Counted from the stretch's first letter, positions 5,805 to 22,974 are shown. The stretch: DNA of 64,000 bases from Planctomonas sp. JC2975 (GCF_012985205.1 NZ_JABEKS010000001.1:62001-126000); one strand, 5' to 3'. Program-made: numbers and translations. Notes: generated by a model not told the origin, from the letters alone.

Positions 5805-6284
5805 ATGGCTGAGATCGCACCCATCCAGCCGTGCCTGTGGTTCAACGACCAGGCGCGCGAGGCGATGGAGTACTACGTGGAGGTGTTCCCGAACTCGCGG
5901 ATCATCTCGATCGAGGGATACCCGGACGAGTCGCTCGACGAGCATTTCGCGGGCATGTCGGGCAAGGTGCTCAACGGACGGTTCGCACTGAACGGGGTGG
6001 ACTTCACCTGCCTCGACGGCGGACCGCTGTTCACATTCAACGAATCCATTTCATTCGTCGTCTCGTGCGCGGACCAGGCCGAGATCGACAGGTACTGGGC
6101 GGCGCTCTCCCACGTTCCGGAGTCGGAGCAGTGCGGATGGTGCAAGGACAGGTTCGGCGTCAGCTGGCAGATCATCCCGGCGAACATGGGGGATCTGGTC
6201 CGGCGGCCAGAGCAGGTCCAGGTGATGATGGCGCAGAAGAAGATAGATATAGAGGCACTTCTCGCGGCAGGTTCTCAAGATTAG
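5805..6284 (+). CDS. VOC/PhnB-like protein, C-terminus rewritten by prophage
   Basis: 159 residues of the VOC fold, PhnB-like subgroup (often annotated 3-demethylubiquinone-9 3-methyltransferase, although enzyme activity is not established for such proteins). Visible landmarks are IQPCLWFNDQAREAMEYYVEVFPNSRI and DRFGVSWQIIPANMGDL. A strong AAGGAAAAGGAAGAGG region precedes the ATG. Codons up to MMAQKKI are host sequence; from 6245 the last 12 residues (DIEALLAAGSQD) come from the prophage. Without the prophage the gene would continue at 22975 and end VIADLENA at 23002. It is third in the ArsR-SRPBCC operon. Confidence 0.88.
   Translation: MAEIAPIQPCLWFNDQAREAMEYYVEVFPNSRIISIEGYPDESLDEHFAGMSGKVLNGRFALNGVDFTCLDGGPLFTFNESISFVVSCADQAEIDRYWAALSHVPESEQCGWCKDRFGVSWQIIPANMGDLVRRPEQVQVMMAQKKIDIEALLAAGSQD
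6225..6244 (+). other. attL core of prophage
   Basis: The 20-bp sequence ATGATGGCGCAGAAGAAGAT is repeated exactly at 22955-22974. It encodes M-M-A-Q-K-K near the C-terminus of the VOC protein. Identity stops at 6224 (G here, C at the other end) and at 6245 (A here, C at the other end), which fixes the boundaries. Confidence 0.92.
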
Positions 6285-6454
6285 TCGGAGGTGCCAGGCA
6301 CCTCGACAGCGCTCGGGCAGACGGGCACCACCTGGTCCTCAAGCGGCAACATCGGATCGGACTGCCAGCCGCACTGCACGCACTCGATGACGCGCGTTTC
6401 GGCGTAGCCGGGTTCGATCTCGATGAGGCGGAAGAGGTGCCCGCTATGGGTCAT
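6281..6454 (-). CDS. Small CxxC protein at prophage left edge
   Basis: 57 residues, family not recognised. It starts MTHSGHLFRLIEIEPGYAE and has a VIECVQCGW segment (C-x2-C) plus a later single Cys, compatible with half of a metal site. The ATG at 6454 is preceded by TACCCT with a 6-nt gap, the leaderless arrangement used elsewhere in this window, which supports a real gene. Its stop overlaps the VOC stop region by four bases, antisense to it, so it ends immediately inside attL. It faces away from the gene at 6540. A role in excision (a directionality factor) is possible from its position; nothing in the sequence proves it. Confidence 0.5.
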   Translation of the reverse strand: MTHSGHLFRLIEIEPGYAETRVIECVQCGWQSDPMLPLEDQVVPVCPSAVEVPGTSD

Positions 6455-6539
6455 GCGCCGAGGGTATCCAAGACTGTCGGGGGTGGTGAGTAGGGTTCGG
6501 TTCGCGGGCCGGGGGTCGGCTCGTGGATGGAGCAATTTA

Positions 6540-6989
6540 GTGTCTGAAGTTGAAATCGAATCCGAACCGGATGCAGCCGACATCGAGATGATGCCGATCG
6601 GTGCGTATGACCTGTACCTATCCGCGCTCATCTCGTGGGTTGTCGGTATCGATGATGAGCATGAAGAGGGAACTGCGAGCGTGACCCTGACGGTGCCCGG
6701 CGCCGTGGTGTCGGGTCAGATCATCTCGCGTGGCGCATGGCGCAAGGCCGTCGCCGCCCAAGTTGGCTCATTCAATGAGCCCGCTGGCAAGGGGCTTGAT
6801 GAACTCTTCGGAACGTTTGAAGAGGAGATTCCGAAGGGCCCGGAGGCCCGGAACGAGCGTCTCCACATTCACCTCGGTGATGTGAGCCTCTGGCAAGACG
6901 GGTCGAATGAACCCCTTCGGTTCAAGACTTGGCGCGGACGACTAACGCAGGTCAGCGGATGGAGCATCGGTTCCATTAGTCGCAACTAG
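6540..6989 (+). CDS. GvpU-like protein (prophage cargo)
   Basis: 149 residues. The sequence resembles proteins annotated as gas-vesicle accessory GvpU: a short N-terminal strand/helix region (YDLYLSALISWVVG), strands SVTLTVPGAVVSGQIISRGAW, then a C-terminal IHLGDVSLW and a W-R-G-R-L-x-x-V-S-G-W-S-I-G ending that is characteristic of that group. No other gas-vesicle genes are present. The start is GTG at 6540, with a weak GGAG 7 nt upstream; a longer frame from 6423 lacks support and overlaps the opposite gene. It runs against the rest of the phage and ends at a bidirectional terminator, as expected for a lysogeny-expressed moron. The family call is from memory of the motif. Confidence 0.6.
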   Translation: MSEVEIESEPDAADIEMMPIGAYDLYLSALISWVVGIDDEHEEGTASVTLTVPGAVVSGQIISRGAWRKAVAAQVGSFNEPAGKGLDELFGTFEEEIPKGPEARNERLHIHLGDVSLWQDGSNEPLRFKTWRGRLTQVSGWSIGSISRN

Positions 6990-6998
6990 GCGAGCCGA

Positions 6999-7038
6999 AA
7001 GAAGGGTCCCGCACAGTGAATGGTGCGGGACCCTTCTT
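6999..7038. terminator. Strong bidirectional terminator
   Basis: A perfect 16-bp inverted repeat (6999-7014 and 7023-7038) with an 8-nt loop (AGTGAATG). It lies between the convergent ends of the GvpU-like gene and the long leftward phage operon. The arms end AAG/CTT, giving short A and T runs on both strands. Confidence 0.9.
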
Positions 7039-7043
7039 CTCAG

Positions 7044-7823
7044 TTACTGGAGATTCATCCAGGCCGTACCATTCCATCGTTTGCCCGTGGAGATGGTTAC
7101 CCATGAGTTGCCGTTCCAGCGCTTCGCCGTGTCAGTCGTAGCGAACGCCGAGCCGTCCCATCGCTTGCCGCCTGAGAGCGTGAGAATACTGATGGTGCCG
7201 CCGAACGGCCCGGTTCCCGATGCGTTTGAGCCGCGGATGCGGATGTAGTAGGTCGTGCCCTTGTCGAGCCCTGTGAGCGTCGCGGGCGTGTTGGACGCGG
7301 AGAAGTTCAGGGGTGATCCGAATCCCGAGTCGTCGTCTGCCTGAATCGTGTACGTGCTCGGTGTGGACCCCGAGCCCATTGACCAATGCACGGTGACGGC
7401 GCCCGGTATGGTCTGGGTGTCCGCGGTCGGCGCGCTTGGGGCGGTCGGCGCGACGCCTGCTAGCCCCACGGAACTGGAGCCGGACGCACCTCCGCTGTTC
7501 GAGGTGCCGGGGATGCCGTTGAAGGTGAAGCTGAAGCCAAATGACCGGGTGCCGTCCGCATTGTGGGCGATGTTCTGCGAGCCGGAGTGCAGGACACGGT
7601 TTCCCGTGCCAGCGCTTCGCCAGGCGTAGCTGTAGCCGTACACTGCTCCGTCGATGTTCACCGTGCCAGTGGCGTTCTGGTCGGAGTACGAAGCCCCATA
7701 GCTATCCGAAGCGTTCAGCACCCACGACACAGGCGTGTAGTTGCCAGCGACGTTGTTGGCGCCAACCGAGACGACGAGCGCTAGGTGAATGCTGTTGCCG
7801 TTGAAGCCGTCCGCCTCCGCCAT
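7044..7823 (-). CDS. Phage tail/fibre protein with FN3 domain and KRWNG repeats
   Basis: 259 residues. The N-terminal 125 residues are rich in Gly, Ser and Asn (GANNVAGNYTPVSWVLNAS) and look like a beta-structured siphovirus tail/baseplate domain. A fibronectin type III module follows at about 127-217 (TAPSAPTADTQTIPGAVTVHW through YYIRIRGSNASG). The end has three short repeats, KRWDGSAF, KRWNGNSW and KRWNGTAW, each about 13-15 residues apart, a motif found at the ends of phage tail fibres. It is the last gene of the structural operon and probably sits at the tail tip and touches the host surface. Confidence 0.75.
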   Translation of the reverse strand: MAEADGFNGNSIHLALVVSVGANNVAGNYTPVSWVLNASDSYGASYSDQNATGTVNIDGAVYGYSYAWRSAGTGNRVLHSGSQNIAHNADGTRSFGFSFTFNGIPGTSNSGGASGSSSVGLAGVAPTAPSAPTADTQTIPGAVTVHWSMGSGSTPSTYTIQADDDSGFGSPLNFSASNTPATLTGLDKGTTYYIRIRGSNASGTGPFGGTISILTLSGGKRWDGSAFATTDTAKRWNGNSWVTISTGKRWNGTAWMNLQ

Positions 7824-7828
7824 CTACG

Positions 7829-8026
7829 TCACCAAAACCAAAGGTCGTTGACGTGCTCCGCAGTCGGCTGAGTTGCCTGCACGAAGACCGTGATGGCCTG
7901 CCTATTGGTCAGCTTCGCGAGTGTGTCGGTCACGTCGTTGATGGCGTCCGCGCCGTCCTTCACGAGGTCGGTGCTCGGATCAACAATGGGGTAGCCCGCT
8001 GCCGCCGCGTCATCTCCTGCTGCCAT
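7829..8026 (-). CDS. Small phage tail-region protein
   Basis: 65 residues: an acidic, Ala-rich N-terminus (MAAGDDAAAAGYPIVDPSTD), a helix (VKDGADAINDVTDTLAKL), then a strand-like ITVFVQATQPTAEHVNDLWFW ending. The C-terminal part resembles phrases seen at the ends of tail-fibre proteins (V-x-A-x-x-P-x-x-x-x-x-x-D-L-W). A good AGAAGGAG site precedes the ATG. It lies 12 nt after the tail-tip gene and 5 nt before the FN3 gene, so it is part of the tail-tip/fibre block. Specific function unknown. Confidence 0.65.
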   Translation of the reverse strand: MAAGDDAAAAGYPIVDPSTDLVKDGADAINDVTDTLAKLTNRQAITVFVQATQPTAEHVNDLWFW

Positions 8027-8038
8027 GTTCTGCTCCTT

Positions 8039-9877
8039 CTACGTCAGGTTGCTGAAGTCGTTGTTGAGGCCGTGCCAAGTCGTCGCGGCATTGCCCTCGC
8101 TCCACGTCACGGCATCCGGCGCGAGCACCCACGCGCCGTCCGGTGTATCGATGAGACCGCGGGTAGTGACATCCATTTCGGCGCCGCCGAGGTCGAAGCT
8201 GATGCGCGAGGCAACGCCCGTCTGTGTCTGCGTGTAGGGCGCAATGACACGCGCTCCCATGTACGGGCGCGCGCCGAAGTCGCTCATGGCCGTGGTACTC
8301 ATCACGCGACCACGACCCTGCCCCTTTGCCAGGATGTATGCCGCGACGCCCGGACCGGGGTATGAGCGATTCGCGTACTCGACAAGCCGCGTCGGCGAGC
8401 CTGTGCCGGCGGCGTCATAGTACGTTTCCGTATTCCCCTGGGGGTTCACCCATGTGTACTTCACAACGACGGAGCCATAGACCGTATCTGGTTGCGTGAG
8501 GTCGATGTCGTCGCTCAGCGCCGTGGCGTTGCTCTGCTGCACGACGACCGTTCCCGGCACGCTGTATGCGACACCATCAACGAGCCTCCAGCTTCCGCCC
8601 TCATCGCACAGCAGACGTCTCCCCGCGGCTCCTAGGACAGGCTCCAGCATCGACCAGTAGTTCTGTCCCGGACTGAGCGTGAGCGAGTCGGGCGTGCGGT
8701 CGATGAGCGGAGTGCGCGAGCTGCTGGACTGGTTTGCGGTACCGCTCCACGCGTAGCTGTAGAGGTCCGTCGCTGGCGTCGAGCCGTCGAAGTAGGTGAG
8801 GAGGTTCACTCCATCGGTTTCCTTGCCATCGCCCTCGACGAGCATGAGCGCGTCCCATTGGATTTGCTGACTCGCTGTGTTGCCGTTGTAGAGACGAATG
8901 AAGACAGCAGTCGACCCGAGCGGGATGGTCGCGGTGACGGACACCCGAGCCGTGGCACCAACCACATTCGGCAGCTGCGCCGATGCAAACAGGTCGTAGC
9001 CGCTCAGGAAGGTTCCGCCAGGTCGGATGGTGTGGATGACGAGGGCTCGGGCACGGTGGACATCTCCACTACCTCCGAGCGGGTAGTCGGTGCCGGTGCC
9101 CGCCGTCTTCACGCGTCCCGTGCCGATGAGCGTGTACGTGTGGCCGGGCTGCATCCCGAACGCGAAGTTTCCGGCAGCGAACGACGATGGGCCCAGAATC
9201 GCATAGCTGTCGGCCGCAGTCGGACTCCAGAGGTTGATGCTGTTGGTCCCGGAGGCGAACCAGCTCGTGTCATTCGTATCGACCGTGCAGTTGATCTGGG
9301 TGATGTCGTACCCGCCGGTAACGTTCGGGTTGTCGAGCATGTTCGTGACAGCGCTGGTAGTCGTCACATCGGCGTCGACTGAGCTGGAGTCGAGCGTGGC
9401 GCTCACGCCGGCAGCTGCCAGTACGTCGTTACATACGGCGATGAGGGAGCCCTGGTGCGCTCGAAAGCTCACCGGCTCTGTAGTGCGGTTAGCCTCTGTC
9501 TGGAGCTTGAATTCATCAGTCGTGAGCCGAACCGCGATCGTGCCGGCCTTCCAATCGACGTTGCGATCTTCGATGTTCAGAGCGGCGCTCACGTCGTTCT
9601 GTGAGTGCAGAACGCCGGTCGCCTCGTCGTATTCGTAGAGCGTTGCTACGAGCACCGCTTGAAGCCGGTTGCGCGGGTCCAGGGCATCGAGTGCGCCCTG
9701 ATCGATGGCAGGCGGAAGCGTCGGCTGCATCGGAAGAGTGAGCGTCAATTCGGCCAACAGATAGGGCGTGACGTTCTCGTCAAAGACGATCGTTCCGCCC
9801 TCCACGTTGTAGAAGTGCTGGACGGAGCCCGCGTCGGTAACTGACACGTTCACGGCCTGGTATCGAAGGACGGTCAT
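8039..9877 (-). CDS. Phage minor tail protein (tail-tip/hub type)
   Basis: 612 residues starting MTVLRYQAVNVSVTDAGSVQ. The N-terminal 160 residues and C-terminal 180 residues look like the two parts of a siphovirus tail-hub protein (LTYFDG...SLTLSPGQNYWSMLEPVLGAAG; then YMGARVIAPY and WVLAPDAVTW). In the middle (about 190-370) is a Gly/Ser/Thr-rich insert with carbohydrate-binding-module features (YDITQINCTVDTNDTSWF, FAAGNFAFGMQPGHTYTL, TAVFIRLYNGNTASQQIQWD). The start at 9877 gives an ATGA overlap with the upstream gene; the longer frame does not. It comes after the tape measure, as in other siphophages. Confidence 0.75.
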   Translation of the reverse strand: MTVLRYQAVNVSVTDAGSVQHFYNVEGGTIVFDENVTPYLLAELTLTLPMQPTLPPAIDQGALDALDPRNRLQAVLVATLYEYDEATGVLHSQNDVSAALNIEDRNVDWKAGTIAVRLTTDEFKLQTEANRTTEPVSFRAHQGSLIAVCNDVLAAAGVSATLDSSSVDADVTTTSAVTNMLDNPNVTGGYDITQINCTVDTNDTSWFASGTNSINLWSPTAADSYAILGPSSFAAGNFAFGMQPGHTYTLIGTGRVKTAGTGTDYPLGGSGDVHRARALVIHTIRPGGTFLSGYDLFASAQLPNVVGATARVSVTATIPLGSTAVFIRLYNGNTASQQIQWDALMLVEGDGKETDGVNLLTYFDGSTPATDLYSYAWSGTANQSSSSRTPLIDRTPDSLTLSPGQNYWSMLEPVLGAAGRRLLCDEGGSWRLVDGVAYSVPGTVVVQQSNATALSDDIDLTQPDTVYGSVVVKYTWVNPQGNTETYYDAAGTGSPTRLVEYANRSYPGPGVAAYILAKGQGRGRVMSTTAMSDFGARPYMGARVIAPYTQTQTGVASRISFDLGGAEMDVTTRGLIDTPDGAWVLAPDAVTWSEGNAATTWHGLNNDFSNLT

Positions 9878-10230
9878 GCGAGCGCCGTCCAATCGAATTC
9901 GACAACGAACGCGAGTTGCGTCGTAGCGTCCTGCGTAATGCTCACGTCCGAACTCGCCACAAGAACCTGATTGTTGAGGTAGTGGTCGGCATCCGTGAAT
10001 TCGACTCCGAGGCACACTGCTACGGCGAAGGCGTTAGCGTCCGCAGCCAACTCGAAGACCGCAGCAAGGTGACCAGTCAGGACGCCCTGCCCAATGTTCG
10101 TCACTTTGCTGTTTCCGAGCGCATCATTCAGCACCGCGTGAATGATGGTGCGCGGCGTGTACTTCCAGGTCAGGGTGTTGACGATGTTCGGCGAATAGAT
10201 GTTGCTCTGCGCATCCGTGAAGGTGCTCAT
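9874..10230 (-). CDS. Phage distal tail-like protein
   Basis: 118 residues beginning MSTFTDAQSNIYSPNIVNTL, mostly short beta-strand patterns (AAVFELAADANAFAVAVCLG, TTQLAFVVEFDWTALA). It lies between the tape measure and the tail hub, the slot usually held by the distal tail protein, but it is shorter than most (over 200 residues), so it may be only a core version. ATGA overlaps join it to both neighbours (10227-10230 and 9874-9877), fixing both ends. The function is assigned by position only. Confidence 0.6.
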   Translation of the reverse strand: MSTFTDAQSNIYSPNIVNTLTWKYTPRTIIHAVLNDALGNSKVTNIGQGVLTGHLAAVFELAADANAFAVAVCLGVEFTDADHYLNNQVLVASSDVSITQDATTQLAFVVEFDWTALA

Positions 10231-11801
10231 CCGATGTTCACTCCCCAAGATCCGCCGACACCGCTTGGCTTGTGCACCACGGGGAACACGTCAACTGAGA
10301 GGTAGTAGTTATCGAGATAGCGCTGAATCTCCGGCCCAACGCTGGACAGGTCAACGGATGGCACGAGCTTCTGGGCGTTCATCGTTCGCTGCGCCTGCAC
10401 CATCGCATCGGCCACCGAGCTTGTGAACTGTCCAGTGAAGGAACTACCGGTCTGCGCGCCGAGCGCGTTCGCGTTCTGGATGAACTGCTGTGACTGAGGC
10501 GAGTCGATGCCGTAGGTGTCCACGACCTCCTGGAAGTCAGCACGGTTCTGGGTCACGTATGCCTGTCCGTTCGCGTCCAAGCCGTCTTTCACGGCAGCGT
10601 TCCAGTCATCCAGGAATCGCTTATTGGCGTCCAGCGTCTTTTGCTGATTGGTGAGGATCTTGTCAGCGTCATCCTTGGAACGGTCCAAGATCTGATCGAG
10701 TGAACTTCCCGTACTCGAAAGGTCCGACTGGAGCGCACTCGTAAAGCCCTGAACGGCAGACTTCTTCTTATCGAGGTCGTCCGAAAGCTTCTTGCTCGCT
10801 GTCGAATAGTTCTCGTACTGCTTGACGGTGAGGCCCATTGCTGACGCCTGAGCCTCTTCGGCCGCCATGGCATCCTCGGCAGCCTTGATCTGCTCATCAA
10901 GTGACTTGGTGACCGTCTTGATTGCACCCTGCTTCGATGCGAGTTGCTGCATCTCCTTCGAGTACGCGCCGCCGTTCGCGCCAAGCTGGTGCTCTTGGTC
11001 CGAGTACTTCTCGGTCAGTTCAGCCAGCACCTTCTTCTGTGCTTCCATCGCGGGGATGGACTTGGCCACCATGGCTACCGTGATGTCACCGAAGGATGCG
11101 CCGATAGCATTCGTGTCCCGCTCAAGGTTCGACAGGTCAATGCCGTAATCCTTGGAACTGGCGACCCAATCGGCCAGCGCTTGGCTGAACTTGTCACCGG
11201 CCGGATGTGCCTTCTCCCATGCCGCAGCGAGATCCGCGGTCATCTCGGTGACGACCTTCTCGTCTTCAGCCGTTAGTTCGAGCTGGCCGGCGATGGAGGC
11301 AAGGAGCCCACCGAGCAAGGCAGCGGGCACCATCACCTCTGGGCCCATCATCATGCCCATACCGCCGATGGCCTGGGCTGCCGCATCCGCTGCCCCTGCG
11401 AGGCCACCCTGGCCGGATCCGAGCGACTCGGCGAGCATCGGAACGCCAAATCCGGCGTTCATCTGAAGGCCCTCGGCGAGCTTGGAACCTTCTTCGTTGA
11501 CCTTCTTGATGCCGCCAGCGGTTGCCTCCATCGGCTTCGAGAGGTCGAGGCCACCCGACGCAGCAGCAAGCTTCGCCTTGTTCACCTGTGTAATGAGATC
11601 CTGCGATGCCTTGGCGGCATCCTGCGTGGCAAGCTGAGCGGCCTTCATCGAGGACTCAAGCTGTTCAGCGGCCTGCGCACCGTCTGGGCCAAGTTTCTTC
11701 AGCTGATCGACCAGGCCGCCGTACTCGGTAGAGAGGTTCTTGACCGAGGCGACAGCGCTCTTGGTGTCACTGACGACACTGATGCTGATTGCTGCACCCA
11801 T
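10227..11801 (-). CDS. Tail tape measure protein (short)
   Basis: 524 residues, largely alpha-helical with heptad-like Ala, Lys, Gln and Glu spacing (SAVASVKNLSTEYGGLVDQL; ASSKDYGIDLSNLERD; EEAQASAMGLTVKQYENYST). A Gly/Met-rich hydrophobic stretch at about 130-175 (AAAQAIGGMGMMMGPEVMVP, ALLGGLLASIAGQL) is typical of tape measures that insert into the membrane during DNA entry. At about 1.5 angstrom per residue it predicts a tail of roughly 80 nm. It follows the tail-tube and assembly genes. Start and stop overlap both neighbours (TAATG at 11801). Confidence 0.8.
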   Translation of the reverse strand: MGAAISISVVSDTKSAVASVKNLSTEYGGLVDQLKKLGPDGAQAAEQLESSMKAAQLATQDAAKASQDLITQVNKAKLAAASGGLDLSKPMEATAGGIKKVNEEGSKLAEGLQMNAGFGVPMLAESLGSGQGGLAGAADAAAQAIGGMGMMMGPEVMVPAALLGGLLASIAGQLELTAEDEKVVTEMTADLAAAWEKAHPAGDKFSQALADWVASSKDYGIDLSNLERDTNAIGASFGDITVAMVAKSIPAMEAQKKVLAELTEKYSDQEHQLGANGGAYSKEMQQLASKQGAIKTVTKSLDEQIKAAEDAMAAEEAQASAMGLTVKQYENYSTASKKLSDDLDKKKSAVQGFTSALQSDLSSTGSSLDQILDRSKDDADKILTNQQKTLDANKRFLDDWNAAVKDGLDANGQAYVTQNRADFQEVVDTYGIDSPQSQQFIQNANALGAQTGSSFTGQFTSSVADAMVQAQRTMNAQKLVPSVDLSSVGPEIQRYLDNYYLSVDVFPVVHKPSGVGGSWGVNIG

Positions 11802-12328
11802 TAGTTGCTCTTCCCTTCAAACGCCTCGTACACGGTGCGCATGAACGTCTGTACCCAGAGCGATGCAATCCGCGGAATGAATTCGGCTGCTGCCGGATAG
11901 ACGGTCCATCCGTTGCGCCGAATGGGCATGAGCGGGTGCGTGGTGTGCCTGATGATCTGCTGCGTTTTGCCTTTTCGAGTTCGGCGCCGGTACGCGGTGA
12001 GCCGGTTACGGTTCGCGCCGAACTCTTCCTGACGTGCCAACTCGGCAGGCGTCGCGCCGCCTGTCATGCGCCGCGTGCTCGCTCCGGATTGCAGCATGAC
12101 GTTCTGGTTGCTGAACTGAAGCTTGGACGTTTCACCGAGCACAGTGCTCTGGAGGCTGTCGCCCGCCAGGTGCCGCGCAACGAGGCCAGTCCACTCTTCC
12201 TGACCGAGTAGTTTCGTCTCCTGCCGGATCTGCGTCTGCACGTTCTTGTCGAGGAGTTGGAGGCCCTTGACTGTGGCATCAAGGGCCTCACTGGTCTTCG
12301 TGCTGACGCTCAGCAGAGAGGTTGGCAC
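11801..12328 (-). CDS. Phage tail assembly or neck protein
   Basis: 175 residues, basic. It has an N-terminal helical half (TKTSEALDATVKGLQLLDKN, VQTQIRQETKLLGQEEWTGL) and a C-terminal half with EEFGANRNRLTAYRRRTRKG and a YPAAAEFIPRIASLWVQTFM ending. The pattern resembles small actinophage proteins of the HK97-gp10-like kind. In this genome it sits between the tail tube and tape measure, where assembly chaperones normally lie. I chose GTG 12328 because a longer frame would run deep into the tail-tube gene; the GTG is 8 nt after that gene's stop. No slippery frameshift extension was evident. Confidence 0.6.
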   Translation of the reverse strand: MPTSLLSVSTKTSEALDATVKGLQLLDKNVQTQIRQETKLLGQEEWTGLVARHLAGDSLQSTVLGETSKLQFSNQNVMLQSGASTRRMTGGATPAELARQEEFGANRNRLTAYRRRTRKGKTQQIIRHTTHPLMPIRRNGWTVYPAAAEFIPRIASLWVQTFMRTVYEAFEGKSN

Positions 12329-12335: not shown

Positions 12336-12746
12336 CTACGCTCCCGCGGTGAGGGTCGGCCTGCCCTGAACGGGCAGTGTTGCAGTCGCCTCTGCAAAGG
12401 AGTTGACCTTCCCGCCGATGGCGCCTGGCACAACGATGAGAGTCACGCTGATGCTCGCCCCGCCGTCATCCGGGACGAACACCACGTCAATGCTGCTGCC
12501 CTCATTGGCAAGGAGGTAGTTGCTCAGCGACCCGGTGGTGTTCCAGTCCTGCATGTAGTCGAGCACACAGGTCCAGGTTGCCTTGCCAGCCTTCGTGAAG
12601 ACGGAGCCCGCCTTCAGGCCGGTCCACGTTGAGGTGGGCGTGGTCGGCGTGATAGTCACGCCAGAGAGTGCAGCTTCGTACGAGTCGGATGCCACCGTAA
12701 AGGTGCACTCCGACATGTAGAGCGGTTCGACCGCGATGCTAGCCAT
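12336..12746 (-). CDS. Major tail (tube) protein
   Basis: 136 residues, nearly all beta-strand: VEPLYMSECTFTVASDSYEA, TITPTTPTSTWTGLKAGSVF, TWTCVLDYMQDWNTTGSLSN, SIDVVFVPDDGGASISVTLI, and a final TATLPVQGRPTLTAGA. The length and the TWT-x-C-V-L-D-Y / L-L-A-N-E-G pattern match small siphovirus tube subunits that stack into rings along the tape measure. Order supports this: terminator gene upstream, assembly gene and tape measure downstream. The ATG at 12746 follows the upstream stop by 6 nt. Confidence 0.75.
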   Translation of the reverse strand: MASIAVEPLYMSECTFTVASDSYEAALSGVTITPTTPTSTWTGLKAGSVFTKAGKATWTCVLDYMQDWNTTGSLSNYLLANEGSSIDVVFVPDDGGASISVTLIVVPGAIGGKVNSFAEATATLPVQGRPTLTAGA

Positions 12747-12752: not shown

Positions 12753-13139
12753 CTAGCCTTTCTGGACTGTCAGGTCCGTTTCGATGTCATAGGACAGGTA
12801 TTGGGTGTTGAAGAGAGCCTTGGTAGCGGTCTTCGGGTGAACGTTCTTCGTGCCCATCAGCGCCGCCCACACGAGCAGAACGTTCGTGTCTAGCGAGGGC
12901 TCGGCGTTCGCCCATTCGGTGTGGTCGTCCACCACGGTCACGAGGGAACTCACCGTGAAGTGAGATTGAGGCGCCTCCGGCAACGGTGCAATGCTGCGTT
13001 GCTTGATGACGATGGCCGGCCGATCGAGGGAGTCGGGCACGTTTTCCACTGGCACCACGAGCCATTCAGGGAACGCGTCGCTCAGCGCCGAGACCAACAC
13101 CTCGCGCGGCGTCTGGCCGTTGATTACTACGTCGGTCAT
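12753..13139 (-). CDS. Tail terminator-like protein
   Basis: 128 residues: REVLVSALSDAFPEWLVVPV, DRPAIVIKQRSIAPLPEAPQ, then VSSLVTVVDDHTEW and a final SYDIETDLTVQKG. The pattern of an N-terminal helix, central strands and a C-terminal strand pair, together with the position between the head-tail adaptor and the tube protein, matches tail terminators that cap the tube and join it to the head. The start at 13139 overlaps the adaptor stop (ATGA). No catalytic features are expected or seen. Confidence 0.65.
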   Translation of the reverse strand: MTDVVINGQTPREVLVSALSDAFPEWLVVPVENVPDSLDRPAIVIKQRSIAPLPEAPQSHFTVSSLVTVVDDHTEWANAEPSLDTNVLLVWAALMGTKNVHPKTATKALFNTQYLSYDIETDLTVQKG

Positions 13140-13633
13140 GCGTCGGCCTGATCGGTGATCAAGTACAGGGTGTGCGGGTCCTTGACCGTGATCGCGTCGT
13201 ACTCCGCTTGAGTGAGCGACACGATGTTGGTGATTTCTCCGCCCGGAGCCGGGAGTGAACTGCTGCCGTCGCCGAAGCTTCCAAAAGGCTTCTTCGGGCG
13301 GATGACCTGCTTGACCACCCAGTCCATTGGGAAGATTCGCACCTGGAACGTGTCGTCACCGGCGCTTGCGTTCGCCGGGTCAACGCGATTCGCATTCCAT
13401 AGGTTGCGCAGCTGCATCCTCTGGCCCATCACGAGCGAAGCTGGAACAGCTCCCGTGATGTAGTCGCCGGGGAACGCGGCCGCGGAAGTGGCCGAGTTGA
13501 GGCGCCAGTTGTATCCGTTGTCGTACGCAAGTACTTGCGCCTTGGCAACTTCGAGAAGCTGCTCTAGTACGGAGTCGTTGGAGGGAGCATCCTTCCAGTC
13601 GGCTCGGATTGTGTCCGTTGTGTACCAGTCCAT
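13136..13633 (-). CDS. Head-tail adaptor with fibre-like C-terminal segment
   Basis: 165 residues. Residues 1-115 look like a head-tail adaptor (gp6/gp15-type): TIRADWKDAPSNDSVLEQLL, EVAKAQVLAYDNGYNW, MGQRMQLRNLWNANRVDPAN, FPMDWVVKQVIRPKKPFG. The last 30 residues (IVSLTQAEYDAITVKDPHTL, then YLITDQ) match a motif more usual at the ends of tail-fibre and minor structural proteins. The ribosome site GGAGGGAG is the strongest in the phage. It lies 21 nt after the capsid gene. The split nature of the protein is my inference from these two segments. Confidence 0.65.
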   Translation of the reverse strand: MDWYTTDTIRADWKDAPSNDSVLEQLLEVAKAQVLAYDNGYNWRLNSATSAAAFPGDYITGAVPASLVMGQRMQLRNLWNANRVDPANASAGDDTFQVRIFPMDWVVKQVIRPKKPFGSFGDGSSSLPAPGGEITNIVSLTQAEYDAITVKDPHTLYLITDQADA

Positions 13634-15488: not shown

Positions 15489-16566
15489 ACTTCACGCCGT
15501 CCTTTCCGTCGCGCTGCGCATCCGGCTGGGGCTGGTTGGGTGCTGGCTGTAGGGCCTTGTCGAGTGGTGTGGTGTCGAACTCGACCGTCTGGCCGTTCGG
15601 AGTCACGTCACCGAGGGACAACCGCGCCTCGATCGGGTCAAGGTAGAAGTGGGCGGTCTGCGTCATCAGGTCGGTGAAGGCGCCGAGCTCGGTCGTATAC
15701 GTCAGCGAGTCGATGGCCGAAGTGCTACCCAGTCGGGAGGCCGGAATGCCCGTGTGCTTTGCGATGTCGGCAGCAACTGCATTGCGCGCATCAAGGAGCC
15801 ACTGACCCGCGGGCTCACCCTCGGTCACGAGGTCAAAGCCATTGGGCACGTATGCGACGGTGGAACCGTCGCGCGACTCGCGCGCCTTCTTGTACCCGGT
15901 GAGCAAGTCGAGCTTTTCGGTGTCGTCCGGCTCCGTGTCGCCCTTGTTCACGAGCTTCGTAAGGGGGACGGAGACGCGGGCTCGTTCAGCAATGGTGTGC
16001 TCGAATTCCAGCGCCTGCCTCAGGGTGCGGGTACCCGTGTTCAGTAGACCGGGGACCATCGACTCAAAGAGGATGACGTCGGTGTCCTGCACGGGTTGCT
16101 CGTCGATGAGGATTGCCCCGCGGTCATCCCATGTCCACTTGCCGTACGGGATGTGGTGTGCAGTGAGCGGGAAGCCGTCAGCGCCGTTGACTCGCTTCCA
16201 CAGGCTGAAGCCCAGGAACATGAAGTCCGCGATGGTGCGCGAGTTACGCAGGTACCACGGCTGAACGTTCTTCCCGGTCTGGGTGAGCCAGGTGGGCTGT
16301 TTGCCGAGGTCGGCTCCGTTCTTCTTGGCCACCAATTCGAGGTTTCCGAAAGCCGAGATGAGAGTCGAGTGGGCTGCCGCAACGGCGGGAATGGTGAGTG
16401 CTTCCGGACGCGTGACTGGGAGCAAGTCGTGAGAGACCGTCTCACCGAAGATGTCCGCGATGACGATTGCGGCCTGATTGTTCGTCGGCGCATCCCATGC
16501 ACCGATCGAAAGCGGAGGGACAGCCGAAGGCATCAGACCGAAGCCGAGCCAGTTCAGCAAACCCAT
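15478..16566 (-). CDS. Phage portal protein (short)
   Basis: 362 residues, shorter than most portals (400-550). It begins MGLLNWLGFGLMPSAVPPLS as siphovirus portals do. The body includes IPAVAAAHSTLISAFGNLEL, WYLRNSRTIADFMFLGFSLW, VNGADGFPLTAHHIPYGKWT and HTGIPASRLGSTSAIDSLTY (the helix before the clip/stem region). A 12-subunit portal ring is the gate for DNA entry and the joining point for the neck. It follows terminase after 38 nt that lack a visible ribosome site and hold two copies of ACAGCTAG. Confidence 0.85.
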   Translation of the reverse strand: MGLLNWLGFGLMPSAVPPLSIGAWDAPTNNQAAIVIADIFGETVSHDLLPVTRPEALTIPAVAAAHSTLISAFGNLELVAKKNGADLGKQPTWLTQTGKNVQPWYLRNSRTIADFMFLGFSLWKRVNGADGFPLTAHHIPYGKWTWDDRGAILIDEQPVQDTDVILFESMVPGLLNTGTRTLRQALEFEHTIAERARVSVPLTKLVNKGDTEPDDTEKLDLLTGYKKARESRDGSTVAYVPNGFDLVTEGEPAGQWLLDARNAVAADIAKHTGIPASRLGSTSAIDSLTYTTELGAFTDLMTQTAHFYLDPIEARLSLGDVTPNGQTVEFDTTPLDKALQPAPNQPQPDAQRDGKDGVKYAK

Positions 16567-16604: not shown

Positions 16605-18113
16605 CTACACGAAGACGGTGCTTACCTTGCGCTTCGGCTTACGGTCATACAGATCGAGGGCGATGGAGCCAGCCTCAAGATCGAGGATGTCGGCGTCAGG
16701 GTCGCCGGCCGGCCTTCCAAGCAGCCAGTTCTGCCCGCTCATCCGCTTGACCACCACTCGCGCAGCGTCATCAAGTGTCGGCTGTCCCCAGTGGTGTAGC
16801 TCGCCCTGATCGATCGCCTTGATGAGTCCAGCTGCCGCCGTGCGCAGCATCGGAAAGTTGTACGGTTCCAGCTTCGGCCGAGGAGTCTGCAACTGCATGT
16901 AGTTCACCTCGGTCATCTCCACGCCCTTCACGTCATGGGCGATCGGAGCCTTGTACTTCCTGCTGAGGCCGAGCAGTCTCTCTGCCAGCCAGTCCACGCG
17001 TGGCCTATGGTCGATGGTCATCAGGCACGCCTTGCCGTCTTCGTCACGCCAGGCGGCAACGATGGATGCCGCCGACTGCGAGAGGTTCACGGCAAAGCCG
17101 AGCGTGAACCGGTCGGGCAACGCTGGCAGGTCACCCGGCACGAGCGCGCGCGACCAACGGTCGGGATGAATGAGGGAGTTGCCCCCGGTCGGGTCGGTGA
17201 AGATCCCCAGATACTCCCTCATGAACCGCTCAGTTCGGAACGTGGCGAAGTTGTCCTTGACACTCTCCAGCGTGGTCAGCGTGCCAACGCCGGGATGGTG
17301 AGCTTCCACGAGTTCACGAGCATGGGCGTTCGGGTGCGCCTCGTCGGGCTCCCAGGCTTCAACCTCTTCTACGAGCGTGTTCTGTGGTGCCCAGTAGGCC
17401 ACGCCAGCGTGCCGAGGGTCACCGGCCGTGGCTTTCGCGAGACCGTCCCAGAGCATGTTTCCGCGCTGGCTCTTACCGGCCGTGCCCGCGTAGATGAGCA
17501 TGGCGCCGGGTCGGGTGTCCTGCGTCGGTCCGGCAGCAGCGAGGATGTCCTGAGCCTTGTCGCCCTCAATCTCCCCAGCCTCGTCCAGCACGATGACGTC
17601 GAAGGCATCCGAGCGGAAAGACTCGGACTGTGGCCCGTAGACCTGCATAATGCTGCCGTTGGCGAAGCGGATGTGCTCGGTGCCCATGCCACTCGTGCAC
17701 TTGAACGGCCAAGACTTCTCATCGTCGCCGTATTGCCGCTTTGCCCATCGCTCCATCGGGGCCTTGATGTCTGTCAGGTACCGTCTGCGCGCCGCCTTGG
17801 CGTTGCTCATCACGGCATAGGCGGTCAGCAGGTCAGGCTCTTCCATGCATCGGCCAACGAGCCACTCCACGAGCGTTGTCGTCTTTGATGAACGCCTCGG
17901 CAGAATGACCGAGGTGAATCGCTTACCGAGAGCGAGAATGTCCGCCAGAAGCAATTGCTGAGGGAGCAGTGCATGGCCACGGCCGACGACTTCAGCGCCG
18001 ATGAGGAACTTGCGTCTCTCCTCCCCAACGCTCTCAGTCATCGCGAACGGTGTGACGTAATCAGGCGGGAGCACTTGGCTCTTGACGGCATCCCAGTCGA
18101 TTAGTTCAGTCAT
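16605..18113 (-). CDS. Terminase large subunit
   Basis: 502 residues. The ATPase half has a variant Walker A, LPRRSSKTTT (K77; the usual first Gly positions are replaced by Arg-Arg-Ser-Ser, as in many HK97-group terminases), an adenine region, and Walker B FDVIVLDEAGEIEG (D177, E178). The C-terminal half would be the RNase H-like nuclease (FAVNLSQSAASIVAAWRDED, VDWLAERLLGLSRKYKAPIA, MSGQNWLLGRP). It pumps phage DNA into the procapsid and cuts it. No separate small-terminase gene is evident upstream, only a 32-residue frame and a membrane protein. Confidence 0.88.
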   Translation of the reverse strand: MTELIDWDAVKSQVLPPDYVTPFAMTESVGEERRKFLIGAEVVGRGHALLPQQLLLADILALGKRFTSVILPRRSSKTTTLVEWLVGRCMEEPDLLTAYAVMSNAKAARRRYLTDIKAPMERWAKRQYGDDEKSWPFKCTSGMGTEHIRFANGSIMQVYGPQSESFRSDAFDVIVLDEAGEIEGDKAQDILAAAGPTQDTRPGAMLIYAGTAGKSQRGNMLWDGLAKATAGDPRHAGVAYWAPQNTLVEEVEAWEPDEAHPNAHARELVEAHHPGVGTLTTLESVKDNFATFRTERFMREYLGIFTDPTGGNSLIHPDRWSRALVPGDLPALPDRFTLGFAVNLSQSAASIVAAWRDEDGKACLMTIDHRPRVDWLAERLLGLSRKYKAPIAHDVKGVEMTEVNYMQLQTPRPKLEPYNFPMLRTAAAGLIKAIDQGELHHWGQPTLDDAARVVVKRMSGQNWLLGRPAGDPDADILDLEAGSIALDLYDRKPKRKVSTVFV

Positions 18114-18208: not shown

Positions 18209-18444
18209 TGACTTGCCGCCACGATGCCCCACACCAAGCCGATGGCTGCACTGGCCACGAGCAGGCTGGCGATGGTCCACACCGCTCGACGGATGGAGGT
18301 GAGCAAGACTTCAACCTTCTGCTCGTGGGTGAGCACGGGCGCCAGTGCGGGCGCCGCCTGCGGGTCGACGGCGGGCTTCCCCGCAAGCATGTTGTCGATG
18401 CTGCTGTCAGTCCACTTGCTGTCCATGGTGTTGCTCCTCTTCAT
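18205..18444 (-). CDS. Single-pass membrane protein, possible holin
   Basis: 79 residues. A polar N-terminus (MDSKWTDSSIDNMLAGKPAV after an initial MKRSNT) and an amphipathic stretch (LTHEQKVEVLLTSIRRAVWT) lead into one C-terminal hydrophobic helix (TIASLLVASAAIGLVWGIVA). This is compatible with a small holin-type or membrane-associated phage protein, but one helix alone is weak evidence. The ATG at 18444 overlaps the stop of the HNH-like gene. It lies just before terminase, where some small phages place lysis genes. Confidence 0.6.
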   Translation of the reverse strand: MKRSNTMDSKWTDSSIDNMLAGKPAVDPQAAPALAPVLTHEQKVEVLLTSIRRAVWTIASLLVASAAIGLVWGIVAASQ

Positions 18445-18740
18445 ACGTCGGGCAGTCGCAGATTGCGCTGCACCTGTTGTCTACGTGCGGTACTGGTCTT
18501 GCGTGCGCCCAGCTTCCCGCCCGCTGAGCGGTTACATGAGCGATGCTCAGTCTGCACCTGGCTACTGCCAAGCCCGGTACTCAGGTCGATGACGTGTCCC
18601 AAGTCCCACGGCTCACTCGGTGCGATGGGCCTGTGACAACGACCACACACGGCCATACCTGCATCGACGGTGCGCTGATAGAGCGGACGGAGCTTGGCCG
18701 TGGTGTTGGACCACTTCGCCTTGCGATGCCACTGGCTCAT
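18441..18740 (-). CDS. HNH endonuclease-like protein
   Basis: 99 residues, basic. It has CGRCHRPIAPSEPWDLGHVI, giving a C-x2-C pair, and a D-x-G-H that matches the first His of HNH nucleases, followed by QTEHRSCNRSAGGK with H-x2-C-N-x2-x-G, the typical second half (E-H-x-x-C-N). HNH proteins next to terminase are common and can be needed for terminase cutting at cos sites, so this suggests cohesive ends. ATGA overlaps join it to both neighbours. The compact size is normal for phage HNH proteins. Confidence 0.75.
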   Translation of the reverse strand: MSQWHRKAKWSNTTAKLRPLYQRTVDAGMAVCGRCHRPIAPSEPWDLGHVIDLSTGLGSSQVQTEHRSCNRSAGGKLGARKTSTARRQQVQRNLRLPDV

Positions 18741-19006
18741 GCCGCGGCCTTCTTTCGCGGCAGTGGTCCGCGCTTGCGTGCTACCACTTCAGGCTCGGGC
18801 GCAAGGGTCGCGATCATCACGTAAGCAACGTCCCGTAACCCGTGCTCACGTCGAAGATGAAGTGTGGCGAGTGAGCGGGTGTTGGCTGCATGGAAATCAA
18901 TGCCGAGAGAGCCGCACTCATCGCACCATGCCACGCCGCTGAAGCCGGACCAGTCGAACACCACTGGACCAACGCGGTACACGCCGGGCCTGAGTGGTGG
19001 ATTCAC
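18737..19006 (-). CDS. Small zinc-finger-like phage protein
   Basis: 89 residues. The middle has CDECGSLGIDFHAANTRSLA, then TLHLRREHG: C-x2-C followed by spaced His residues, compatible with a single zinc finger. The C-terminus is basic (RKRGPLPRKKAAA). The GTG at 19006 is the first start after the divergent control region; GGGAGC lies almost against it, so the true start could be slightly downstream. It is the first gene of the late-type leftward run (zinc finger, HNH, membrane, terminase). Function unknown; DNA binding is likely. Confidence 0.65.
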   Translation of the reverse strand: MNPPLRPGVYRVGPVVFDWSGFSGVAWCDECGSLGIDFHAANTRSLATLHLRREHGLRDVAYVMIATLAPEPEVVARKRGPLPRKKAAA

Positions 19007-19438: not shown

Positions 19439-20542
19439 CTACAGGGAGGGACTCAGGGAGTAGTGACGGGAGTTCCTCTCACCCTCACGAATGACCACCT
19501 GTCCGCAGTCAACGGCCGACTTCATGACATCCGACACTGTGTTCTTCGAGATACCCCGGAGGCCGAGAGCGACAATCTCAGACGTCTTCATCTCCCCGTG
19601 CTTCGCCAGGGCGTCACAGGCGAGCTGCACGAGCCGATCGGCTTTCATGGCCTGCATCTCGGCGCTGAAGGACAGGTGCCCGCGATCGTCCATCGTGACG
19701 AGGCCTTTCTCAACGTCCACGTCACGGCCGAAGGCATCGAAGTAGCGCCACGCGCGCGGGTCGGTCGGATCGTCACGAGTCAGACGCCAGATAGCGTCCG
19801 GCCAGTCTTCGAGCCGCGAGTCTCCACGCGCGTGCTCCGAGCCGTGCCCGTGGTGGTGAACAACAATCCCATCCTTGATCCCGGCCTCTGTCTTGAGTGC
19901 GTCAAACGCCTGGAGGATGACTCCGGCCTCGGTGTGCTCATTGAGCCCCAACGCATCTAGCAGCGGCCGAAGCGGGTCAAGGATGAGCGTGTCATATCCC
20001 TGAAGGCGCTTCGCCCACTCGGCTCGGACGTGTGCGTCGATGATGTTGAGGGAGGCAGCAGCACCACGAAGTGAGAAGATCCCTACGCGCTCCGGGTGTG
20101 CGATTCCCTGGCGACTCAGCCATCGCTGAATGTTGGTCGGTGAAAGCTCCAGATCGAGCACAGCGACTCGCCTTGTGGAGGTCGTGGTGAAGCGCCCGAG
20201 GAACGGCTCTCCGTCTACGAGTGAACGAATCAGGTTGTGCGTGACTGTCGTCTTGCCCGCCTTCTTCTGTGCCGAGAACATGACGTTTCCGCCGTCGTGA
20301 AGAAGGCCGTCGATGACGAAGGGCTCTTCGGGCAGGTCTTGCTGAAGGAGTTCATCGAGCGTGACCGCGGTCGGGATCGCGACCGCCTCAGCCTGCTCGG
20401 CGCGGTACTTCCGTTCTGCCCAGTTCCTGCTGCGTAGGCGCTGAAGTTCCTTCTCGGCCTGCTCGTCCGGTGCCATGCCGCGCTTGTCGAGAGCGGCCTC
20501 GATGTCCGACCGCACCACGCTGGGGATTACTACCGGGCTCAC
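19439..20542 (-). CDS. RepA-like replication ATPase
   Basis: 367 residues. A RecA-fold ATPase of the RepA/KaiC-like hexameric helicase group: Walker A FSAQKKAGKTTV (K97), then RRVAVLDLELSPTNIQRWLS, Walker B LQGYDTLILDPLRPLLDALG, and VVHHHGHGSEHARGDSRLED (the H-H-H-G-H motif after strand 4). The C-terminal 70 residues form a winged helix (TSEIVALGLRGISKNTVSDV, GQVVIREGERNSRHYSL), suggesting origin binding in the same chain. The GTG at 20542 overlaps the upstream stop (GTGA). In very small phages one such protein plus host factors can run replication. Confidence 0.8.
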   Translation of the reverse strand: MSPVVIPSVVRSDIEAALDKRGMAPDEQAEKELQRLRSRNWAERKYRAEQAEAVAIPTAVTLDELLQQDLPEEPFVIDGLLHDGGNVMFSAQKKAGKTTVTHNLIRSLVDGEPFLGRFTTTSTRRVAVLDLELSPTNIQRWLSRQGIAHPERVGIFSLRGAAASLNIIDAHVRAEWAKRLQGYDTLILDPLRPLLDALGLNEHTEAGVILQAFDALKTEAGIKDGIVVHHHGHGSEHARGDSRLEDWPDAIWRLTRDDPTDPRAWRYFDAFGRDVDVEKGLVTMDDRGHLSFSAEMQAMKADRLVQLACDALAKHGEMKTSEIVALGLRGISKNTVSDVMKSAVDCGQVVIREGERNSRHYSLSPSL

Positions 20543-20991
20543 GCCACGACTCCTTCCGGCTGAATGAAGACCTTCCGACGCGGGCCAGCTTGCGCCTCGA
20601 CGCGCTCTTGCGCCTCCCGCTCGCAACGCCGATGCTCCCAGTACTCGTCTTCGGAGTCGTACGCGAGTACCTCGTCGCGCGTCCGCTGAAACCACATGTC
20701 ATCCATGAGCCGATGCATTAAGCGTCGAGTGGCCCGCTCTGGCAATGGGCCGGCGTGCGGGAACTCGTCAGCGGCAGCGGCGCGTATGGCATCCGCTATT
20801 GCCGCCTGCGCCTTGCCGTTGCGAGCGAGTGCCAGGTGGACGTGCTCGCGGGTCAGCTGCCGATGCGTGCGGGCCATGAAGCCTGCAAGCCGCAGATGAG
20901 CCGCAACCTTCAGGTCAGGTGAATCGAATATTTCGTCAAGGCCGCCAAGGGCATCATTCGCCAGCGCGTGCCAATCATTTGGATGTTCCAC
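20539..20991 (-). CDS. Hypothetical phage protein before the RepA-like gene
   Basis: 150 residues, helical and charged: WHALANDALGGLDEIFDSPD, VAAHLRLAGFMARTHRQLTR, ALARNGKAQAAIADAIRAAA, then MHRLMDDMWFQRTRDEVLAY, and a basic/acidic tail. No family is recognised. The start is GTG at 20991, with AAGGA 6 nt upstream, behind a TATAAT promoter, so it is the first gene of the leftward run. Its stop overlaps the RepA-like gene. A replication accessory role or an early regulator is possible from its position. Confidence 0.65.
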   Translation of the reverse strand: MEHPNDWHALANDALGGLDEIFDSPDLKVAAHLRLAGFMARTHRQLTREHVHLALARNGKAQAAIADAIRAAAADEFPHAGPLPERATRRLMHRLMDDMWFQRTRDEVLAYDSEDEYWEHRRCEREAQERVEAQAGPRRKVFIQPEGVVA

Positions 20992-21130: not shown

Positions 21131-21175
21131 AGCCCCCTTGGACGCTTCTAGGCGGAACGCATGTCCAAGGGGGCT
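21131..21175 (-). terminator. Terminator after integrase operon
   Basis: Perfect 13-bp arms AGCCCCCTTGGAC (21131-21143) and GTCCAAGGGGGCT (21163-21175) around a 19-nt loop, about 70 nt after the stop of the gene at 21247 in its direction. It separates the integrase transcript from the promoter at 21043. No long T run, so efficiency is uncertain. Confidence 0.75.
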
Positions 21176-21246
21176 TCTGGAAGAAGGAAGTCAACTTGAG
21201 GGGAATCGACTTGCCACTCTCAGTATATTGGCGATTCAGGCATTAC

Positions 21247-21492
21247 TCACACGCGCTCACCGGCCCAGACGAGTTCAGCGTTAGCCTCGGTATTCAGCCA
21301 CTCGCGGAGCCGCTTTCGGTAGTCGCCCGTCACGTGCCGGGAGCGCTCGAACATGAGCGCACGAGCAAGCTCGTAGACGGTCGGCAACTCGCCGGCTCGG
21401 CAGCGGGCGCAATCCGACTCCGGGTCGACGATGTGCCAGCCTGCACCGTGTTCCAGGCCGCGTTCTTCTTGTTCTTCGGGTGCGGGGGTCAT
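21247..21492 (-). CDS. Small protein coupled to integrase
   Basis: 81 residues, acidic at the start (MTPAPEEQEERGLEHGAGWH), with SDCARCRAGE (C-x2-C) and then a helical region (ELPTVYELARALMFERSRHV, YRKRLREWLNTEANAELVW). No family is recognised. It overlaps the integrase stop by four bases, so it is made from the integrase mRNA. Recombination directionality factors for serine integrases are small and diverse and are often encoded nearby, which makes this a candidate, though its identity cannot be proved from sequence. Confidence 0.6.
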   Translation of the reverse strand: MTPAPEEQEERGLEHGAGWHIVDPESDCARCRAGELPTVYELARALMFERSRHVTGDYRKRLREWLNTEANAELVWAGERV

Positions 21493-22940
21493 TCTTTGTT
21501 CTCCGTTTCTTCCTGCGCTCGTGTTATGGGGATTGCGATGCCGGTCGCACTAAAGGCGACATCGTGAAAGGACAGAACGACTCGGCCCAGAATGTCCCGA
21601 ATAAGTGCCTGGCGCTTCTCGATGGGAGTGCCATTCCATTCCGGAAGCCAGGCGGGGAATGCTTCCGCGCCGTGAACGATTGCGACATCGCCGGTATCGA
21701 GTAAGGCGCGCTTGGCAATCTCACGTAGGCCAGCCCGATTGCTGGCAGCAGTCTCGGCGCCTATTCGCTCGTCAAGCGCAGCAATCTCCTTGCCTAGTGC
21801 CGCTATCCGCCTTACGGCCTCGGGAATGTCGGCGCCTTCTGTCTCGGCCAAGGTCTGCTGTAGTTTTCGTCGCCGCACGAGGTCCGCGCGCTCGGCTCCG
21901 AGACGGGTGAGATCGTCACTCGATCGCTCGGGCTCGGCAATCGTCAGGGCCATGAAGACAGCTTCAGCGAGGATGCGCTCTAGGCGGTCGGCATGGATGG
22001 CAGGATGCACAGCGCCGTCTTTGTCGGCCGTGCGGTGCCTCGGGCAGAAGTAGCGGGGCGTGCGTCCCTGCTGCTGTCGGTAGCGCAGGGGAGCGTGACA
22101 GACGGAGCACTCCACTATGCCTGATGCAAGGTGCCTGACCTTTGGTCCCCGTGCTGTTGCCGCCCGAGTCGGATGCTCGATGATGGCAACAACGGCGTCC
22201 CACTCGGTCCGATCCACTATGACCGCACCACCATCGCCGACGACCACGCCGTGATGAACTAATAGCCCGGCGTTGCTTGGTCGCATGAGCACTTGGCGTA
22301 CGGTAGTGACTTCCCAGCGGTTGCCGGATGCGGTGAGAACGCCCTCAGCGTTCCAGCGCTGGGCGACCGAATACAACGAGCTACCTTCGATCACCTGACG
22401 AGCGGCCCATCGAATCCAAGCGGCCTCGCTCTCCCGAATCGTGCGATCGGTCTCGAAGCCGAAAGCGCGCTTGCCGATGATTGGCTTGCCGCGTGCCACT
22501 CGATCAGCATTCGCGCGCAACTGCCGTTCAGACTTCCGCCGCACCTCGAACCGGGCTACGGAGGCGAGCATCGTTGCTCGAAACTCTCCATCAGCTGTCG
22601 TTAGGTCAATCTCGCCATCGACCGTTACGGCACTCAGGCCGTGATCTATCACGGTGTTCAGGTCGCGAGTTGAGCGGGCGAACCTGTCCAGGTCAACGCT
22701 GACCAGGGTGTCAACCGTGCCTGCTTTGGCATCCTGCAAGAGGCGATGCCATGCTGTGCCGTGCCCACGCTCCTTCGAAGCGCTCACGTCGTTGTCGATG
22801 TAGGCGCCGGCATCTATCCATCCCCGGGCGGTCACCAAGGCCAACGTGCGAGCGTCCTGCCGTTCGATACCTTCGTCTAGGTCCTTGGACTGGCGGAGAT
22901 AGCGCGCCGCCCTGCGGTTGCCTGCACCTGAATCTGCCAT
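21489..22940 (-). CDS. int: Large serine recombinase (phage integrase)
   Basis: 483 residues. The catalytic domain (about 10-145) has RRAARYLRQSKD with the nucleophile S18, then LVSVDLDRFARSTRDLNTVI and the long E helix. The recombinase domain (150-270) includes GKPIIGKRAFGFETDRTIRE and MRPSNAGLLVHHGVV. The zinc-ribbon domain has C278, C281, C299 and H302 (CSVCHAPLRYRQQ, YFCPRH) as likely ligands. A coiled-coil segment of Arg/Glu/Leu repeats follows (about 335-410), as needed for directionality. The ATG lies 14 bp from the attR core, typical for this enzyme class. It makes the unidirectional attP x attB exchange. Confidence 0.95.
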   Translation of the reverse strand: MADSGAGNRRAARYLRQSKDLDEGIERQDARTLALVTARGWIDAGAYIDNDVSASKERGHGTAWHRLLQDAKAGTVDTLVSVDLDRFARSTRDLNTVIDHGLSAVTVDGEIDLTTADGEFRATMLASVARFEVRRKSERQLRANADRVARGKPIIGKRAFGFETDRTIRESEAAWIRWAARQVIEGSSLYSVAQRWNAEGVLTASGNRWEVTTVRQVLMRPSNAGLLVHHGVVVGDGGAVIVDRTEWDAVVAIIEHPTRAATARGPKVRHLASGIVECSVCHAPLRYRQQQGRTPRYFCPRHRTADKDGAVHPAIHADRLERILAEAVFMALTIAEPERSSDDLTRLGAERADLVRRRKLQQTLAETEGADIPEAVRRIAALGKEIAALDERIGAETAASNRAGLREIAKRALLDTGDVAIVHGAEAFPAWLPEWNGTPIEKRQALIRDILGRVVLSFHDVAFSATGIAIPITRAQEETENKE

Positions 22941-22946
22941 GCGTCC

Positions 22947-22952
22947 ATAATT
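22947..22952 (-). promoter_or_regulatory. Possible integrase -10 box beside attR
   Basis: On the minus strand TGCAATTAT is an extended -10 (TG plus AATTAT) ending 6 nt before the integrase ATG, so the mRNA may be leaderless. The spacer and -35 region fall in the attR core and host DNA, so the upstream half of this promoter changes on integration and excision. No good -35 is seen in the integrated form. Confidence 0.4.
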
Positions 22953-22954
22953 GC

Positions 22955-22974
22955 ATGATGGCGCAGAAGAAGAT
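22955..22974 (+). other. attR core of prophage
   Basis: The same 20-bp core as attL. Right of it, at 22975-23002, lie the displaced last codons of the VOC gene (encoding VIADLENA and a TGA stop), in frame with the 5' part ending at 6244. Confidence 0.92.

Follow-up and report, generated by a model that had tools for sequence, protein, structure and literature searches.

A serine-integrase mini-siphovirus prophage of Planctomonas without recognisable lysis genes

The smallest siphoviruses of actinobacteria share a capsid-protease fusion and a compact head-tail gene order. Among those described, the Arthrobacter FE/AN and Gordonia phages (BlueFeather, Decurro, Coeur, EricDab) have genomes of 15-17 kb, and BlueFeather carries a lysin and a holin but no integrase (PMC7954295). 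The Microbacterium phage PensacolaC28 (PP978844; PMC11895466; 16.7 kb) encodes an M23-type endolysin and membrane proteins; its announcement describes it as lytic (PMC11895466), and its genome nevertheless has a tyrosine-integrase locus and two helix-turn-helix (HTH) genes. Small integrated siphoviral elements, some below 20 kb, are known from Curtobacterium, in the same bacterial family as the host studied here; all untrimmed ones have tyrosine integrases, Cro/CII-like genes and lysins (Evseev et al. 2023, PMC9862828). Here we analyse a 64,000-nucleotide stretch of Planctomonas sp. JC2975 (GCF_012985205.1 NZ_JABEKS010000001.1:62001-126000; hereafter the window), which contains a 16,730-bp prophage. 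Like PensacolaC28, it has TerL, portal, capsid-protease fusion, tail and HNH endonuclease genes, homologous and in the same order, although the proteins are only about 25-35% identical. Unlike these systems, it carries a serine integrase and no recognisable lysis genes, a combination that recurs among its relatives.

An integrated element with head, tail and packaging genes

The 20-bp direct repeat ATGATGGCGCAGAAGAAGAT is present in two exact copies spaced 16,730 bp apart (Table 1); by arithmetic, about 5e-4 such pairs are expected in a random 18.5-kb stretch of the same composition. The serine integrase gene begins 15 bp away from the right-hand copy. In three of the four other genomes of the host genus that were examined, the 3’ end of the host gene is uninterrupted, i.e. 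the site is empty, and joining the short flanks of the prophage yields the same uninterrupted 3’ end. GC content is 58-64% within the element and 65-72% in the flanks, and an IMG/VR entry (IMGVR_UViG_2887710099_000001) matches window positions 6540-25820 exactly, covering most of the provirus. With attachment (att) repeats and an empty site both found, as for site-specific integration, the element is confirmed as a real integrated serine-integrase prophage. Because three congeners have an empty site and the GC content is unlike that of the host, it is unlikely that these are domesticated, vertically inherited particle genes.

From right to left, the genes run from the integrase through small early genes, AAA_25, HNH, TerL, portal, capsid-protease fusion, adaptor and terminator to the major tail, tape measure, tail-tip and minor tail proteins, all open and on the minus strand. 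Only a gene with two predicted transmembrane (TM) helices and a GvpU-like gene lie on the plus strand. The length of 16,730 bp (14-18 kb being approximately the range of the group), the fusion protein and the TerL-portal-capsid-tail order all indicate, as far as gene content can tell, that the prophage belongs to the capsid-protease-fusion mini-siphovirus group (clusters FE, AN and CW). At 0.15 nm per residue, the 524-residue tape measure plausibly predicts a tail of about 79 nm; that of PensacolaC28 has 560 residues, and its tail was measured at 90 nm (PMC11895466). Scans for promoters and terminators gave matches no commoner than chance. The repeat, the integrase at one end, the extent, the full head-and-tail set and the mini-siphovirus membership, all put forward in the initial annotation, were thus reproduced on re-examination, and its tail of roughly 80 nm is plausible. 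Its description of the element as complete-looking was not, for the reason set out below.

Lysis genes and the serine-integrase type

Between the last tail gene, which ends at 7044, and attL, there is no endolysin or holin, only the GvpU-like gene and a 57-residue open reading frame (ORF). The GvpU-like gene occupies the position of the lysis cassette, on the strand opposite to the structural genes; the element contains no other gas-vesicle genes. No XRE/cI-type repressor match was found within the element, and a repressor of an unfamiliar type is possible. A lysis cassette of endolysin plus holin is typical of the group; PensacolaC28 has a lysis cassette, and so does the sister element L022, from the same genus, which encodes a CHAP-like lysin, holin-like proteins and also a recognisable repressor. 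Because this cassette is missing, the prophage cannot be called complete, and its capacity to form plaques autonomously appears doubtful, since no lysis genes are recognisable. Two further locations for a lysin were rejected. The minor tail protein has tail-family and fn3 matches, and in both L022 and PensacolaC28 its homologue adjoins a separate lysin gene. The 612-residue protein was discounted because lysis-plus relatives also encode it.

Searches with TerL and the capsid fusion matched small actinophages, PensacolaC28 being the best (34% for TerL). TerL relatives were found in two other genomes of the host genus, in 17 of 400 genomes of the family (the prophage’s own genome included) and in 35 of 296 genomes of one genus. 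A single-protein TerL search of the genome contigs gave no match, and a search of plasmids gave distant, partial matches only. In all, about 55 integrated relatives were found, nearly all in Microbacteriaceae. This makes temperate mini-siphoviruses a common feature of the family, and the suggestion that a temperate member would be a new link to lysogeny is undercut by these counts, as it is by the tyrosine-integrase and HTH genes of PensacolaC28 and by the published Curtobacterium prophages. When the serine integrase was searched against phages, the best 40 records listed were all larger than 42 kb. In Humibacter albus, a 5.3-kb contig (5,266 bp; L151, L152) holds a fragment of a close relative, comprising TerL, the portal gene and a portion of the capsid gene; the remainder of that element was not found.

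The relatives’ loci were annotated by simple gene calling from codon usage and by iterated hidden Markov models (HMMs), and 56 elements, two phage isolates among them, were used for the tree. Gene order is conserved, the module from HNH, TerL, portal and major capsid protein to the tape measure being kept in the other loci retrieved from the family and in many more from one genus. Two types emerge. In the commoner, a lysin and holin-like genes are accompanied by an XRE-type repressor and by a tyrosine integrase that usually lies directly behind the lysis genes. The second, to which the prophage belongs, lacks a lysin; its serine integrase is at the opposite end, and there is often a replication protein, either AAA_25 or a D5-type primase. 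This type comprises 11 elements: this prophage, L026, L028, L031, L103, L104, L105, L107, L108, L111 and L115. With HMMs built from the relatives’ lysins, a lysin was recognised in none of these 11 and in 35 of the 45 others (Fisher 2.4e-6). Among the 17 Pfam families matched by their 103 non-core ORFs, there was no peptidoglycan hydrolase; against PHROG, none appeared among the 25 families listed of 48. Many of 20 control lysins matched endolysin or peptidase PHROGs, although some divergent lysins escape Pfam. The absence of lysins from the 11 elements is thus well supported but short of proof. In L107 and L108, the last tail gene is followed directly by a dprA fragment, with no gene between them.

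In a tree built from the portal, capsid, major tail and g160 proteins, the 11 elements are scattered, and the serine-integrase/no-lysis state requires 8-10 changes. The end branches leading to the prophage and to its lysis-plus sister L022 are equal (0.22 each). Structural-gene dN/dS (nonsynonymous to synonymous substitution) ratios, calculated from pairwise dN and dS values, are approximately 0.19 for the prophage and L149, 0.30 for L108-L115 and 0.46 for L107-L108, and 0.43-0.52 in lysis-plus pairs. Thus, the structural genes of the lysis-less pairs are under purifying selection, as are those of lysis-plus pairs. L149, the nearest relative, is metagenomic and has a tyrosine-type integrase; up to its ends, which are contig ends, no endolysin is seen after the minor tail gene, where there is only a small protein with one TM helix and, cut off at the contig end, a weak and partial match to a tRNA (E = 0.53).

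Table 1. Features of the prophage and its insertion site (window coordinates).
Feature	Position	Strand	Basis or remark
Host gene, PF06983 (3-dmu-9_3-mt/PhnB-like)	5805..6284	+	Pfam 6.9e-44; final dozen codons come from the prophage
attL core repeat	6225..6244		Within 3’ end of host PhnB/VOC-type gene; exact repeat and empty site in three congeners
57-aa ORF, unknown function	6281..6454	-	Adjoins attL; ORF call
GvpU-like 149-aa accessory gene	6540..6989	+	NF041667 4.8e-11, under the curated cut-off; no Pfam match
Minor tail protein with fn3 domain	7044..7823	-	phrog_6977 3e-13
65-aa tail-region protein	7829..8026	-	81% identity to L022 counterpart
612-aa tail-tip region protein	8039..9877	-	Family-conserved; tblastn in relatives
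118-aa conserved tail-region protein, PensacolaC28 gp9-like	9874..10230	-	Local HMM
Tape measure protein, 524 aa	10227..11801	-	Position; homology to PensacolaC28-type tape measure family
Conserved protein preceding tape measure	11801..12328	-	
Major tail protein	12336..12746	-	phrog_4574 4.6e-9
Tail-terminator position protein	12753..13139	-	Synteny with L002/L003
Head-to-tail adaptor position protein, Phage_tail_C tip motif	13136..13633	-	PF24243 3.7e-13; synteny
Major capsid-protease fusion protein	13655..15403	-	phrog_2263 1e-40, phrog_3270; FE/CW/AN-type phage fusion proteins
Portal protein	15478..16566	-	phrog_12 1.3e-7; 75-84% to close relatives
Terminase large subunit (TerL)	16605..18113	-	phrog_9 4.2e-20; PensacolaC28 34%
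79-aa protein, one predicted TM helix	18205..18444	-	
HNH endonuclease	18441..18740	-	phrog_1808 1.1e-5
81-aa protein, unknown function	18737..18982	-	
79-aa protein, two predicted TM helices	19100..19339	+	Opposite strand
AAA_25 (RepA/primase-helicase-like) replication protein	19439..20518	-	PF13481 7.8e-24
150-aa early protein, unknown	20539..20991	-	
81-aa ORF overlapping integrase stop	21247..21492	-	Candidate directionality factor or regulator, a guess from position only
Large serine integrase	21489..22940	-	phrog_95 2.6e-86; PF00239, PF07508, PF13408 (Resolvase, Recombinase, Zn-ribbon)
attR core repeat	22955..22974		Original host-gene 3’ end continues beyond this copy

Several side observations were made on the relatives. 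Most of the serine-integrase mini-prophages lie at competence or pilus genes, as identified from flanking proteins rather than by family search: L028, L103, L105, L107, L108 and L115 are inside dprA and L111 is beside it (7 of 11 in total), L026 is at comEC, and L031 and L104 lie in a tad/pilus region. Six lysin-less elements (L109, L110, L111, L116, L118 and L119) have a sigma-70-like gene behind the tail genes, at the lysis-cassette position; the four scanned match PF04545/PF08281 and the remaining two are their homologues. Near the lysis position of L028 (334-1236), there is a CAP12/Pycsar-type TIR effector (PF10137, 1.2e-19).

Possible routes of release

We tentatively read the prophage as a lysis-less, satellite-like temperate mini-siphovirus, a reading to which we give slightly less than an even chance. 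The serine integrase, having inserted the element into the 3’ end of the PhnB-like gene, would later excise it, the AAA_25 protein would support replication of the excised form, TerL and HNH would package the genome, and self-made virions with tails of about 80 nm would assemble. The lysis needed for release would then have to come from a different phage or prophage or from autolysins of the host, making the element functionally satellite-like. It is the missing lysis genes alone that point to a helper. As to origin, the region that holds the lysis genes and the integrase may have been swapped for a serine-integrase/replication module, lysis being lost simultaneously: such an exchange would delete lysis because the majority of lysis-plus relatives have their tyrosine integrase immediately downstream of the lysis genes. 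The broader proposal, that a widespread class of tailed-virus elements in Microbacteriaceae encodes entire heads and tails, packaging functions and a serine integrase, has given up lysis and classical repression, and needs a helper for release alone, is possible but rather doubtful.

A possible helper resides in the same genome: a second siphoprophage of roughly 33 kb (G000:C1, about 443.8-477 kb; L143, L144) has a tyrosine integrase, a cI-type gene, TerL, an HK97-type portal, tail genes and a holin-like protein. A number of observations weigh against satellite-like release. Firstly, large-portal prophages occur in 2 of 11 genomes with serine-integrase elements, 2 of 14 with lysis-plus elements and 0 of 15 others; because they are not enriched in the first group, a resident helper is not supported as a general rule. 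Secondly, the association with lysin loss is not significant once shared ancestry is taken into account: with 8 independent comparisons available, phylogenetically independent pairs gave a median of 4:0 (p = 0.125). Thirdly, ten non-serine elements likewise have no recognised lysin, some loci being cut by contig or fetch limits, and pairwise dN/dS covers time preceding any loss of lysis. Finally, a divergent lysin may escape detection, because the putative lysins of L022, L025, L034 and L037 had no Pfam match at the thresholds used.

Part of this evidence bears on decay, a serious rival that we nevertheless judge somewhat improbable. The prophage would be stranded, its lysis cassette and repressor lost by recombination, and intact only since the loss is recent. 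That the sister L022 retains its lysin and holin-like proteins, that the ten non-serine relatives have no recognised lysin either, and that remnant prophages are common in Actinobacteria (PMC10023795) are all consistent with this. However, every structural gene is open, serine integrases and accessory genes are retained, and the lysis-less state recurs in 11 elements from several genera with intact structural genes and with dN/dS not raised in the pairs measured.

A smaller rival, which we consider unlikely, is an autonomous temperate phage whose lysis gene, for example one of the two small TM proteins that the prophage encodes (18205-18444 and 19100-19339) or an unknown enzyme, is not recognised. 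L104 (17082-17408), L105 (1876-2193) and L115 (1977-2312) keep a holin-family protein with no recognisable endolysin, and the small single-TM protein near the end of L149 would fit as well. Against this, no non-core family is common to most of the 11 elements, bar integrase, HNH, tail and replication proteins, and the isolates inspected, PensacolaC28 and BlueFeather, have annotated endolysins. An ordinary, complete temperate mini-siphovirus would explain why head, tail, packaging and integrase genes are all there, but with endolysin, holin and repressor all unrecognisable, we regard this as very improbable.

Comparison with known satellites

In the literature searched, we found no paper on lysis-less prophages of this kind. 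Mini-siphoviruses, mostly known as lytic isolates, are shown here to be common prophages in one bacterial family. Should the elements prove merely stranded, the recurring link between serine integrase and lost lysis would still point to block exchange of lysis and integrase genes as a repeated route of prophage inactivation. Dependence of satellites on viruses is usually pictured as borrowing of capsids, tails or replication. If satellite-like release is correct, a recurrent class that borrows lysis alone would stand at the other end of the satellite range, release would be a separable function, and satellites could be defined by missing lysis instead of missing virion genes.

The closest comparisons are with satellites that encode part of their own particle. 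Capsid-forming phage-inducible chromosomal islands (as described in PMC10690885), like the prophage, have their own capsid, terminase, HNH and integrase; they take tails from their helper, whereas the prophage encodes tails itself. MulchRoom and MiniFlayer, two satellites of Streptomyces (PMC10690885), are likewise actinobacterial, encode their own capsid and packaging genes and depend on another phage. They are without key replication genes and live as parasites of virulent phages, whereas the prophage encodes an AAA_25 replication-type protein and has no known helper.

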